Positions 11,644-61,890 of a stretch of 64,000 nt of DNA are shown in pieces (position 1 is the stretch's first letter; each line of letters starts with the position of its first letter). Made by a program: the position numbers and the translations under genes. Under the pieces are notes generated by a model. It saw nothing but the letters and a program-made list of their open reading frames with translations. It was not told the origin of the DNA and did not search any database. This stretch comes from Gemmatimonadaceae bacterium. GTDB taxonomy: Bacteria > Gemmatimonadota > Gemmatimonadetes > Gemmatimonadales > Gemmatimonadaceae. The stretch covers positions 62,001 through 126,000 of the forward strand of contig JAHBVT010000001.1 of NCBI GenBank assembly GCA_019637355.1. Reading direction: 5' to 3'.

Positions 11644-12147
11644 ATGCCGCTGCTGCGCGAGACCGTTGTCCTGACGGCGACCGACGTCGAGTCGCCGGGC
11701 TTCTGGCGCAAGGTCGGGCTGTCGCTGCCGCTGATGGCCATCCTCACCGGGGCTGGCCTGCGGGCCTACCGTGCCGTGGTCTACGCCTTCGGCTGGAGCG
11801 ATTCGTGGCTGTTCATCGCCGGCACGTTCATCGCCGGTGCGATGTTTCTCTTCCTGATGGCCACGCTGCATCTCGGCAACTACCCGGCCCGCGCGTGGTG
11901 GTGGCGCGCCCCGCTCTTTGCCTTCATCGAGGCGCTCACGGAGATCCTCGTCTCGCTCGCGCTGACACTGCTCGGCCTGGAGTTGGTGGGCTCGATGCAG
12001 GCCACGCTCGAAGACTTGCAGATCACTGCCACGCGCACGCTGTTTATGCGCGTCGTCGGCATCACCGGTTTCGCGTTCGTGCTCGCCATCGTCAGCACCC
12101 TCGTGCGCCGAATGCTGCTCAAGGGCCACAAGTTACCGGCTCACTGA
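11644..12147 (+). CDS. Four-helix membrane protein, unknown function
   Basis: 167 residues with about four membrane segments (near 25-45, 57-77, 88-112 and 137-157). Between helices it carries short charged loops and a Trp-rich YPARAWWWRAP motif. No family recognised. It begins 14 bp after the RidA gene and the ATG is the only good start. Its frame is real: hydrophobicity is maintained, and the competing long frame in another phase is an upstream extension of the M24 gene. Confidence 0.7.
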   Translation: MPLLRETVVLTATDVESPGFWRKVGLSLPLMAILTGAGLRAYRAVVYAFGWSDSWLFIAGTFIAGAMFLFLMATLHLGNYPARAWWWRAPLFAFIEALTEILVSLALTLLGLELVGSMQATLEDLQITATRTLFMRVVGITGFAFVLAIVSTLVRRMLLKGHKLPAH

Positions 12148-12194
12148 GGGCCGACGGCCGGCTCTTCACCACGAGAACACGGAGTCACGGAACA

Positions 12195-13589
12195 ATGCCG
12201 AGAGCCCGCAGGATGCTGTTGCTGTTGCAGTTCGCTTCCGTCTTCAGTCTTCCGTCCTCCGTCTCCGCCCAGACCCGCCCCTTCGGCACGCTGCGCGAGC
12301 AGGCGGCGACTCGGCAGGCCTGGCTGGAGAAGCGCCTCACCACCGTCCTGCCAGCCGTGATGCGTCGGCACGGCGTGGATGCCTGGGTGATCCCGATGCG
12401 CGAGTACAACGAGGACCCGATGTTCTCGTCGCTGGTATCGCCGACGACCTTCGCCGCGCGACGCCGAACGATCTACGTCTTCTTCGACAAGTGCGCCGCC
12501 AGCGCTGCCAGCGATCCCGGCGATGGGTCCTGCGTCGAGCGCATCGCCCTCGGCGGCACCTCGCAGGGCGGCCTCTACGAGGCACGCCGCGCGATGGCGG
12601 CCGTTGACGCCGGGGCCGAGGCGCGACAGGCCGAGTTGGTGGGCGCCGAGCAGTGGAACGCGCTGCGGAGCGTGCTCGAGGAGCGCGACCCCAAGCGCAT
12701 CGCCATCAACGTGTCGCGCAACTTCGCCTTCTCCGACGGCCTCACCGCCGGTGAGCGCGACGGGATGAGCGAGGCGCTCGGCGCGCGCTGGACCTCGCGC
12801 TTCACCAGCGTGGACGCGCTGGCGCTGGACTTCATCGCCACGCGCCTGCCGGAGGAGGCGGAGTTCTACCGCGAGCTGCAGACGTTGGTCTGGCAACTGA
12901 CGGAGCGGATGTTCTCGAGCGAGGCCGTGACGCCGGGCGTGACCCGCACCAGCGACCTGGTGTGGTGGTGGCGGCAGCAGGTCAACGACCTCGGGCTCGG
13001 CACCTGGTTCCAGCCCAGCGTGAGCGTGCAGCGGCGCGGCGTGAGCGCGGCGCAGCTCGGCGACGATCCCATCATCCAGCGCGGCGATGTGCTGCACTGC
13101 GACGTCGGCATCGTGGCCCTCGGCCTCGCCACCGACACGCAGCACAACGGCTACGTGCTGCTGCCGGGCGAGACGGCGCCGCCTCCCGGCTTGGTGCGCG
13201 CGTTGCACAACGCCAACCGCCTGCAGGACATTACGATGGAGGAGCTGCGGCCAGGTCGCAGCGGCAACGAGGTGCTGGCCGCGGCCTTGGCGCGGATGCG
13301 AAGCGAGGGCCTCAACGGCACACTGTACTCGCACCCCATCGGGACACACGGTCACGGCGCCGGTTCGCTGGTGGGGCGCTGGGACGCGCAGGAGGGCACG
13401 GGCGCGCAGGGCGACGCCAAGGTGATCGCCAATATGTGGTACTCGATCGAGCTGCAGGTGACCACGCCGGTGCCCGAGTGGGGCGGCCAGCCGGTGCGGA
13501 TGGCGCAGGAGGAGGATGCCATCATCGGCCCCGACGGCCGCACACGCTGGGCCCTGCGCCGGCAGTCGAACCTTTTCCTCGTCAAGTGA
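12195..13589 (+). CDS. Exported M24 family metallopeptidase (Xaa-Pro aminopeptidase-like)
   Basis: 464 residues; the open frame extends upstream but the signal peptide marks the start (ATG 12195, or 12213). The leader ends SSVSAQ with likely cleavage after Ala. The creatinase-like N-terminal domain is followed by the pita-bread catalytic domain with all five metal ligands in plausible positions: Asp in LHCDVGI, Asp in ATDTQH, His in GTHGHGAG, Glu in YSIELQ and Glu in AQEEDAI. Expected to hydrolyse N-terminal residues or small peptides in the periplasm. The signal-peptide codons (12235-12269) are almost identical to an intergenic repeat elsewhere in the window (61859-61886), an unusual coding intrusion. 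Confidence 0.88.
   Translation: MPRARRMLLLLQFASVFSLPSSVSAQTRPFGTLREQAATRQAWLEKRLTTVLPAVMRRHGVDAWVIPMREYNEDPMFSSLVSPTTFAARRRTIYVFFDKCAASAASDPGDGSCVERIALGGTSQGGLYEARRAMAAVDAGAEARQAELVGAEQWNALRSVLEERDPKRIAINVSRNFAFSDGLTAGERDGMSEALGARWTSRFTSVDALALDFIATRLPEEAEFYRELQTLVWQLTERMFSSEAVTPGVTRTSDLVWWWRQQVNDLGLGTWFQPSVSVQRRGVSAAQLGDDPIIQRGDVLHCDVGIVALGLATDTQHNGYVLLPGETAPPPGLVRALHNANRLQDITMEELRPGRSGNEVLAAALARMRSEGLNGTLYSHPIGTHGHGAGSLVGRWDAQEGTGAQGDAKVIANMWYSIELQVTTPVPEWGGQPVRMAQEEDAIIGPDGRTRWALRRQSNLFLVK
12235..12269 (+). repeat. Dispersed CTTCCGTC-type repeat inside the M24 signal-peptide codons
   Basis: Quasi-tandem units (TTCCGTCTTCAG, TCTTCCGTCC, TCCGTC) from 12235 to 12269. 27 of 28 bases at 12236-12263 match the non-coding segment 61859-61886, and the units resemble the right arm at 44345-44370. 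Here it is translated as part of the export signal (SVFSLPSSVSA). Confidence 0.75.
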
Positions 13590-42636: not shown

Positions 42637-42702
42637 GGACGGATGACGGATGACGGATGACGGACCACGGTGCTGTTCGCATCCGTCATCCGTCATCCGT
42701 CC
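42637..42702. repeat. Perfect GGACGGATGAC-type hairpin between sufB and sufC
   Basis: Arms 42637-42659 and 42680-42702 are perfectly complementary over 23 bp with a 20-nt loop. A further partial copy lies at 42616-42630. The arm sequence is nearly that at 14467-14489. Inside an operon, it could attenuate transcription or protect the sufB message. Confidence 0.9.
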
Positions 42703-44200: not shown

Positions 44201-44370
44201 GGGACGGAAGACGGATGACGGAAGCGACAACGCATCTCGCGGCACCGAGCAAGACGCCCTAACCCGTTGGCTTACAAAGCGTTGACGGGCGACCAAAGTT
44301 CCCAAGGAACCCAGTCGCCCGTCGCCGCTACCTTCCGCAAACGCCGCTTCCGTCCTCCGTCTTCCGTCCC
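44201..44370. repeat. 170-bp element with 26-bp terminal inverted repeats in the suf leader region
   Basis: Ends 44201-44226 and 44345-44370 match at 25 of 26 positions (GGGACGGAAGACGG...). Nested inside are GACGGGCGAC (44284-44293) with its complement (44314-44323) around a smaller GTTCC/GGAAC hairpin (44298-44310). It lies between the GGDEF gene end and sufB. MITE-like or RNA-structural; no transposase seen. Confidence 0.85.
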
Positions 44371-55773: not shown

Positions 55774-55860
55774 GGACGTATGACGGAGGACGGATGCGAC
55801 AAGGGTGCGCTGAGCTGAGCTCGGCGCACCCTTCAAGCATTCGTCCTCCGTCCTCCGTCA
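55774..55860. repeat. Nested hairpin between convergent genes
   Basis: Outer arms 55774-55797 and 55837-55860 are GACGGAGGACGGATGC-type imperfect inverted repeats. The inner stem 55801-55815 / 55819-55833 (AAGGGTGCGCTGAGC) has 14 of 15 pairs and a 3-nt loop, a strong terminator-like hairpin. Bidirectional termination likely. Confidence 0.88.
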
Positions 55861-60059: not shown

Positions 60060-60396
60060 AGAACCCGAGATACGCCCGCACTCTCGGCTCGATCCGATCA
60101 GGCGTCCACGGCGGCGACCAGACGAGGTTCATCGACACGCTCCCGACGCCCTCGAGCGCCTTCAGCTGGTTCTCGGCGTCGGTCATTATCTCCGGGCCGG
60201 AGGGGCACCCGGGCGAGGTGAGCGACATATCGACCTTCACGTCGTTGCCCTCGACGGCGATGCCGTAGATGAGGCCGAGATCGAGGATGTTGAGGTTAAG
60301 CTCGGGGTCCTTCACGCGCCGCAGCGCGAGCTTCACCTGGTCTTCGGTGATGCCGGCGGGCGCGGGCGCGGGCGATGGCGTAGCGGTATCGGTCAC
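60058..60396 (-). CDS. DUF59/MIP18-like protein, SufT-related
   Basis: 112 residues from GTG 60396, which overlaps the hydrolase stop (GTGA). ALRRVKDPELNLNILDLGLIYGI and LTSPGCPSGPEIMTD match the metal-sulfur cluster assembly factor family with its conserved Asp-Pro-Glu and Cys. Family members (SufT, PaaD) aid Fe-S maturation. It is 16 kb from the suf operon. A Pro/Ala N-terminus precedes the domain. Confidence 0.92.
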   Translation of the reverse strand: MTDTATPSPAPAPAGITEDQVKLALRRVKDPELNLNILDLGLIYGIAVEGNDVKVDMSLTSPGCPSGPEIMTDAENQLKALEGVGSVSMNLVWSPPWTPDRIEPRVRAYLGF

Positions 60397-61682
60397 GGCG
60401 TGTCCGTCTCGGGGCTCGAGGCCGCGCTGGCGCGCGGAAGGGTCGTCGGACGACGAATCAGCGTCCGTGCCGGCGGGTTCCAGTCGGGCCGCTGGTCCAC
60501 GCGGAAGTCGCGCGGCCAGCTCACGGCGGCGAGCTGGCGGTCGTCGGTGATGGCGAGCGCCGCCGCGTCGGCGACGTCGTGCCGCACGTCGGCGATGATG
60601 ATGCCGGCCCGCTGGGCGCGTGGGTCGTGCACGCGGTTGGTCAGGATGATGACGAAGAGCTCGCGCTCGGGGTCGATCCACAGTGACGTCCCGGTGTATC
60701 CGGCGTGGCCGTAGGTGCGCTCACTCAAGAACTCGCCGGAGCCCTGCTCGCCCGACGCGATCATCCAGCCGTAGGTGCGGTTGCCGGCCTGCAGCGTGGT
60801 GAAGCGCCGTACGGTGGAGTCGGCGATGAGCCGCAGGTCGCCGTAGCGACCGCGGTTGAGCATCATCTGCGCGAAGATGGCGAGATCCTGCGCCGTACCG
60901 AAGAGCCCGGCGTGGCCGCTGACGCCGCCGAGCCGCCAGGCCGATTCGTCGTGCACCTCGCCGCGCAGCGGATAGCCGCGGGGCGGATACATCTCCGTCG
61001 GCGCGATGCGTGCGCGCAACACGGGGTCCGGGCGATAGCCGGTGTCGTGCATCCCGAGCGGCTCGAAGATGCGCGTGCGGCAGAACTGGTCGAGCGGCAT
61101 CCCGCTCACGCGCTCGATGGTGAAGCCGAGTACCATCGCGCCGAGGTCGGAATAATCGGTGACGCCGCCGGGAATCGAGTTGAGCCGGGTCGTCAGCACC
61201 TGCTCGCGGCCCTCGGCGGGACTGTTGGCCGTCTGCCAGATGCGCCGGCCCGGCGGCAGGCCCGAGCGATGCGTGAGCAGCTGCGCGACCGTGACGCGCT
61301 CCTTCCAGCGCCCGGTGAACTCCGGTAGCACGGTCTGCACGCGCAGGTCGAGCGGAAGCTTGCCTTCGTCGTAGAGGATCATCGCGGCCGTCGAGAGGCA
61401 GACGGCCTTCGTCAGCGATGCGAGATCGTAGATGCTGCTGACCGGATTCACCTCGCCGGTCTGGTGCCAGGCGAGGCGCCCGTAGCCCTTCTGGTGCACG
61501 ACGCCTCCGCGTCGGCCGATGACGACTGCCGCGCCCGGATATGCGCCCGCCGTGATACCACGCTGGACGATGCGGTCGACTTCAGCGAGGCGCGCAGCGG
61601 ACATCCCGACGGCGCGAGGGGGCTGGAGCGGGACCGGATCCGGCGGGAGGGTGAGGAGGGTGGCGAGGGCGAGGAGGAGCAT
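60393..61682 (-). CDS. Exported class C beta-lactamase-like serine hydrolase
   Basis: 429 residues from ATG 61682. N-terminal hydrophobic leader. Catalytic Ser89-x-x-Lys92 in LASLTKAV, Tyr in VTDYSDLG (YxN-type with Ser) and GHAGYTGTSLW (HxG box) complete a penicillin-binding-type site. Likely a peptidase or esterase (EstB/DD-peptidase like) rather than a resistance enzyme. Coupled to the DUF59 gene. Confidence 0.9.
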   Translation of the reverse strand: MLLLALATLLTLPPDPVPLQPPRAVGMSAARLAEVDRIVQRGITAGAYPGAAVVIGRRGGVVHQKGYGRLAWHQTGEVNPVSSIYDLASLTKAVCLSTAAMILYDEGKLPLDLRVQTVLPEFTGRWKERVTVAQLLTHRSGLPPGRRIWQTANSPAEGREQVLTTRLNSIPGGVTDYSDLGAMVLGFTIERVSGMPLDQFCRTRIFEPLGMHDTGYRPDPVLRARIAPTEMYPPRGYPLRGEVHDESAWRLGGVSGHAGLFGTAQDLAIFAQMMLNRGRYGDLRLIADSTVRRFTTLQAGNRTYGWMIASGEQGSGEFLSERTYGHAGYTGTSLWIDPERELFVIILTNRVHDPRAQRAGIIIADVRHDVADAAALAITDDRQLAAVSWPRDFRVDQRPDWNPPARTLIRRPTTLPRASAASSPETDTP

Positions 61683-61890
61683 TGGGGGTGGAGAGGGGGC
61701 TGCTGTTCTGAAGGTAAGCGAAGCGGGAGACGGGAGGGGGGAGGGGGGTGACGGCGGGGAGAGGGGAGATGGGAGATGGCTGAGAGACGGGGCACGAAGT
61801 CCTTAGCTAAGTCGCGTTCTTACAATGGATTGCGCTGAGTCCAAGCCGGTTCTCAACCTTCCGTCTTCAGTCTTCCGTCCGCCGTCTAGT
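61683..61890. repeat. Repeat-rich half of the 311-bp divergent spacer
   Basis: 61720-61800 is a G/A-rich block containing GGTGACGGC...GGCTGAGAGACG, shared with 46224-46270. 61859-61886 matches the M24 signal-peptide codons at 27 of 28 bases. The remaining 61891-61993 has no repeat and I see no clear promoter there, although it must serve the sigma gene. Confidence 0.75.

Follow-up and report, generated by a model that had tools for sequence, protein, structure and literature searches.

A palindromic heptanucleotide repeat of Gemmatimonas contributes to predicted signal peptides

One arm of a family of palindromic repeats, normally located between genes, lies inside the 5′ end of four or more genes, and in the four cases found in this genome it falls within predicted signal peptides. 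In one of them, the gene of an M24-family metallopeptidase, the pyrimidine-rich 3′ arm of such a palindrome (CT arm) quite probably entered the first codons, replaced the end of the ancestral signal peptide and was tolerated there.

The match was found within the window, i.e. the whole 64-kb stretch of DNA that was analysed, positions 62001-126000 of contig 1 (Table 1). The bases at 12236-12263 (TTCCGTCTTCAGTCTTCCGTCCTCCGTC) are identical to those at 61859-61886 (TTCCGTCTTCAGTCTTCCGTCCGCCGTC) in 27 of 28 positions, one base differing, and an exact 22-mer, CTTCCGTCTTCAGTCTTCCGTC, starts at 12235 and at 61858. The second copy, which is non-coding and 50 kb away, is located between a beta-lactamase-family gene (60393-61682, minus strand) and the ECF sigma factor gene (61994, plus strand). 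With up to three mismatches allowed, we recovered five matches in the window, where dinucleotide shuffles give an expectation of 0.00, and 63 + 73 = 136 sites in the whole genome (3.15 Mb), while a reversed control pattern gave none. The 28-bp repeat that an earlier note on this DNA had described is thus real.

Table 1. Repeat arms and the genes and predicted signal peptides associated with them; locus labels are given for features listed by locus.
Feature	Position or locus	Strand	Details
Gene upstream of the M24 gene	11644..12147	+	no Pfam match; stop codon 47 nt before the M24 ATG
GA-rich repeat-like stretch before the M24 start	12167..12193	+	CACCACGAGAACACGGAGTCACGGAAC; pairing possible with TTCCGTCCTCCGT in the CT arm
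M24-family metallopeptidase gene	12195..13589	+	PF00557, E 3e-12
Predicted Sec signal peptide	12195..12269	+	MPRARRMLLLLQFASVFSLPSSVSA; cleavage between VSA and QTRPFG; alternative start ATG 12213
CT-rich 3′ arm	12236..12263	+	four heptad units, TTCCGTC TTCAGTC TTCCGTC CTCCGTC; encodes SVFSLPSSV
Member with both arms	42638..42701	.	15-nt loop
Intergenic member with both arms	44203..44368	.	GA arm, 124-nt loop, CT arm
Member with both arms	55782..55859	.	50-nt loop
CT-arm copy, non-coding	61858..61886	+	107 nt before the ECF sigma factor gene
TPR protein, CT arm in signal peptide	L007		MLLLLQLLSPSVFSLPSQA
M14 carboxypeptidase, CT arm in signal peptide	L122		
EnvC-type M23 peptidase, CT arm in signal peptide	L128		MTEASRVRLLRLAAVAMALSLPSSVIRP

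The M24 protein starts with MPRARRMLLLLQFASVFSLPSSVSA, followed by QTRPFGTLREQ. Signal peptides were called by hydropathy, charge of the n-region and the -3/-1 rule, combined in a heuristic score. Here the hydropathy is 2.25, the n-region carries a charge of +3 and the residues at -3 and -1 are small. By these measures it is a good Sec signal, running from MPRARR (n-region) through MLLLLQFASVFSL to VSA before Q, and we infer that the protein is exported by this predicted signal. Read from the ATG at 12195, the repeat corresponds to S15-V23 and forms the c-region together with the last part of the h-region. The earlier assignment of the repeat to a part of the h- and c-region holds, but the peptide given for it, SVFSLPSSVSA, was too long, as S24 and A25 lie outside the repeat. 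The element at this gene has no perfect heptad GA arm. A start codon downstream of the repeat, an objection raised in the earlier note itself, was looked for in the M24 frame: there is no ATG, GTG or TTG between the repeat and RPFGTLREQ, which is conserved among orthologs from residue 28, and the first one after the repeat is residue 55, within the conserved domain. The start codon must therefore precede the repeat, and the candidates are the ATGs at 12195 and 12213.

The organism groups with Gemmatimonas, as the closest orthologs of the M24 gene come from records labelled Gemmatimonas or Gemmatimonadaceae. When the DNA was aligned with that of four relatives, identity 3′ of the repeat was 70-79 %, whereas the repeat itself had only 2-10 matches out of 28 and fell in gaps. 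At this place each relative has an unrelated signal peptide of its own, e.g. MGRSTSVRTALIAGMVLGMAWPADLAA in the sister species G007. Orthologs with the same residues and no repeat at the DNA level, which would have spoken against the repeat as their source, were not seen; the orthologs lack those residues. Since G007 is rich in the repeat elsewhere in its genome and has none in its M24 gene, the arm is most likely a recent change in our lineage inside an already existing signal. It probably arrived by insertion or by templated expansion of units. Regarding the surroundings of the gene, a second repeat type, CACAGAGGCACGGAGGCACGGAGG, is present at the orthologous place in G002 and G011 (L089, L090), and a similar stretch is found at 12167-12193 of the window. 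In these two genomes its translation product could be FATEARRHGG, preceding an ordinary signal peptide; alternatively, it could sit immediately 5′ of a TTG start.

In this family, each arm is a short array in which a 7-bp unit, NTC[C/A]GTC, is repeated in tandem; the commonest units in the M24-bearing genome are ATCCGTC, TTCCGTC, CTCCGTC and TTCAGTC. In G007 almost all units are TTCCGTC. Among the loci read, the arms form inverted pairs of a single polarity, with 66 in the order GA arm, loop, CT arm and 0 in the opposite one. Run counts come from individually read loci and not from an exhaustive genome survey; they include 117 runs of at least three units here and 52 in the sister species. Exact three-unit sites number 84 in the M24-bearing genome and 97 in G007, and among 15 other genomes of the genus there are few in three species and none in 12. 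In the M24-bearing genome, the two arms of a locus agree better in unit type than arms taken from different loci (0.60 vs 0.48 shuffled, p = 0.0025). For 26 of the 68 runs read in G007, a run here occupies the same side of the orthologous gene, although the unit type is different; positions therefore appear to be partly inherited, with the units homogenised inside each genome. The RAYT/Y1 transposase (PF01797) was found in none of 17 genomes of the genus, while the control search was positive in 5 of 14 known genomes, which makes slippage, template switching or gene conversion a more plausible way of copying than mobilisation by RAYT. A strong G+C-rich hairpin, similar to an intrinsic terminator and flanked by heptads, is frequent in loops that lie between the arms or next to them (L008, L018, L025, L028, L167 and L168). 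Strong inner stems occur in 6 of 43 loops compared to 1.1 in shuffles.

The palindromes are placed at gene ends. The GA arm overlaps the upstream stop codon or lies at most 20 nt from it in 68 of 81 cases, and 41 of 64 CT arms have the downstream start codon at a distance of no more than 20 nt. Of 100 located spacers of the M24-bearing genome, 65 lie between tandem genes, 29 between convergent and 6 between divergent ones. A Shine-Dalgarno (SD)-like 4-mer was found in only 1 of 48 genes with a CT arm 0-18 nt upstream of the ATG (loci of G000 and G007), as opposed to 15 of 55 genes of the window, and genes preceded by a CT arm are possibly initiated without it. At many loci (L014, L120, L121, L126, L131, L148, L153 and others) the GA arm crosses the stop codon. 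The proteins then end in TEDG or TDDG, and their TGA stop is supplied by GGATGACGG-like units of the arm.

Why the CT arm can be translated is apparent from direct reading of the sequence. Whichever frame is chosen, translating the 7-bp unit in triplets leads to the same cyclic heptapeptide: the CT strand yields FRLPSSV-like peptides and is stop-free in all frames, and the GA strand yields DGRRKTE-like peptides. Owing to the TTCAGTC unit, the sole Arg codon, CGT, becomes the Ser codon AGT in the M24 frame, and for this reason the arm encodes only S, V, F, L and P. The TPR gene has the same frame and order of units.

The M24 signal peptide has company, as three more genes of this genome carry the CT arm in a predicted signal peptide (Table 1). 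In the EnvC-type gene the ATG itself is inside the GA arm, and the cleavage site of the protein is doubtful, with P where its orthologs have G or A. Orthologs of the TPR, M14 and EnvC-type proteins without the repeat display ordinary, unrelated signal peptides. All four genes with the CT arm in their 5′ codons are predicted to be secreted, compared to 4 of 33 genes with the arm at most 20 nt before the ATG (Fisher p = 0.001); the base rate of predicted-secreted genes in the window is 10 out of 65. Copies in frame are also found in other proteins. IleS (L158) contains both arms as extra residues, DGRRK...SVFSLPS, relative to all aligned orthologs, and NAD synthetase (L023) has a copy in a hypervariable linker. 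Further in-frame copies are those of E2 acyltransferase (L149, L178), MetH (L164) and a DEAD-box helicase (L028). What the in-frame sites (signal peptides, linkers and C-terminal tails) share is tolerance.

We considered three readings in which the repeat would not have remodelled the M24 signal peptide in the proposed way. Codons for S, L, V and A are abundant in signal peptides, so a match might come from chance or convergent codon choice, but the exact 22-mer and a genome-wide family, with 0 expected and 0 control matches respectively, refute this, and we give it practically no credence. It is extremely unlikely that the start codon is wrong and the repeat an untranslated 5′ leader. Such errors are common at annotated N-termini with palindromic repeats, and most N-terminal REP copies in three species were judged untranslated (PMC3733652); moreover, in this genome AccB (L137) and L148 are of this kind. 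Both were rejected as N-terminal cases, as a downstream ATG fits better, and AccB of the sister species begins with the same MIDLRYV. In the M24 frame, however, no such codon is available before conserved residue 28, and the corresponding place in orthologs is occupied by an in-frame signal peptide. Finally, the earlier note suggested a way of making new secreted proteins, by which spreading repeats would give secretion signals to proteins that had none. The CT arm, free of stops and in the M24 frame hydrophobic enough, does occur in four signal peptides, yet we consider this very unlikely: for all four genes the repeat-free orthologs already possess an unrelated signal peptide in that position, no repeat-tagged protein with cytosolic orthologs was found, and the core of the h-region (MLLLLQ, VVTAAVLVL, RLLRLAAVAMAL) is outside the arm. 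An existing export signal was thus remodelled, the repeat presumably replacing or lengthening part of it in a region free to vary.

The remodelling most likely proceeded as follows. Palindromes would spread or be homogenised in spacers, with the purine arm next to the stop codon of the preceding gene and the pyrimidine arm next to the start codon of the following one. Purifying selection would halt the elements at gene ends, except where the end of the protein is free to vary, and signal peptides would extend this free zone beyond the start codon; in the M24 gene the end of the ancestral signal peptide would then have been replaced by the pyrimidine arm. The arm was probably tolerated because the CT strand has no stop in any frame, because this frame encodes nothing but the five residues named above, and because a signal peptide has to keep its hydrophobicity and its cleavage motif but not its sequence. 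For the bias towards signal peptides, we infer that selection for tolerance is a sufficient explanation. It is also conceivable, though we hold it to be less than probable, that the repeat is a functional RNA element at mRNA ends, either a terminator-like or stabilising hairpin or a pyrimidine-rich ribosome standby site free of Shine-Dalgarno sequence, and that coding for signal peptides is a by-product of selection keeping the element. This would agree with arms that adjoin stop and start codons, with the scarcity of located spacers between divergent genes, with the strong inner stems of some loops and with the runs kept at the same side of orthologous genes in the sister genome despite another unit type. 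The rarity of SD-like 4-mers also fits, but it is partly trivial because the CT arm occupies their place. Moreover, at the M24 gene the RNA fold of 12148-12275 does not exceed that of shuffles in stability (z -0.10), which gives no support for a selected structure, and copies are present within coding linkers as well.

Other heptad families were found in signal peptides of relatives. The M14 orthologs of G015 (L245) and G014 (L249) have signal peptides with heptads of the CCTTCGTC/CCTCCGT and CCTTCATC types, accompanied by a GA stretch that is complementary to them and located at the start codon or ahead of it, and these heptads are repeat families of the two genomes (21 and 18 exact sites). 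Similarly, the TPR signal peptides of G008 (L217) and G001 (L218) contain TTCAGC-type heptads, which form a family there with 18 (G008) and 7 (G001) exact CCTTCAGCCTTCAGC sites. A lag-7 scan of 58 ortholog signal-peptide regions gave three at 17 of 21 or above, one of them being a GA-type stretch at the gene start, while the periodicity scan of the 58 orthologs gave none at the other lags tried and none in the mature parts. These few cases suggest that signal peptides have captured heptad sequence repeatedly. That heptad palindromes are a recurrent source of signal peptides across the genus, with unrelated families having entered the same genes independently (M14 and TPR, in three species each), is a tentative and rather unlikely extension. 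If true, export signals would turn over partly by capture of repeats and not by point mutation only.

Signal peptides of orthologs diverge very fast, and to our knowledge the turnover of their sequence is poorly documented. In our case a lineage-specific repeat would supply the replacement sequence, and pairs of species with and without the repeat make the process testable. The family also offers a natural experiment on the segments that tolerate inserted sequence, i.e. signal peptides, linkers and C-terminal tails.

Several known systems resemble parts of this picture. By the description available, the RPE of Rickettsia (Ogata et al. 2000, as summarised in PMC10969869) are likewise palindromes lying in frame in housekeeping genes and tolerated in the protein, with intergenic copies too. 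They are about 150 bp long with a conserved encoded peptide, whereas the Gemmatimonas elements have free loops between short arrays of a 7-bp unit and are notable for their place in the signal peptide. REP and REPIN elements (GTAG- and CGTC-tagged; PMC3733652, PMC3116915) are also intergenic inverted pairs, mostly between convergent or tandem genes, and sometimes lie in ORFs; they supply stop codons, as the GTAG repeats do to flanking genes (PMC3733652). CGTC-type REPs, like the Gemmatimonas family, have no dedicated transposase (PMC3733652, PMC3116915). However, a REP is a hairpin of 20-40 bp with an unpaired tag, and the arms described here are heptad tandems of variable length in genomes without RAYT. 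These arms end in CCGTC, a sequence present in nearly every unit and paired with the other arm. With a 7-bp tandem unit, many loci and clustering near gene ends, the family has the features of heptanucleotide repeats. Those known are the intergenic TAACTGA of marine Beggiatoaceae (PMC4679880) and GGGAATC of Xanthomonas and Nostoc, with heptanucleotides of Calothrix cited as well (PMC4692102). As far as these accounts go, TAACTGA and GGGAATC are also short tandems of 7 bp, specific to a genome or species and situated near start and stop codons, but they are mainly direct repeats, unlike the inverted pairs of strict polarity in Gemmatimonas, and signal-peptide coding was not found for them in the portions of the two papers available. 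Nor did a search of the available literature find a paper on heptad palindromes of Gemmatimonas or on their use in signal peptides. Palindromes within ORFs and heptanucleotides near gene ends are thus already known, and what appears to be new is the heptad palindromes of Gemmatimonas as signal-peptide sequence.
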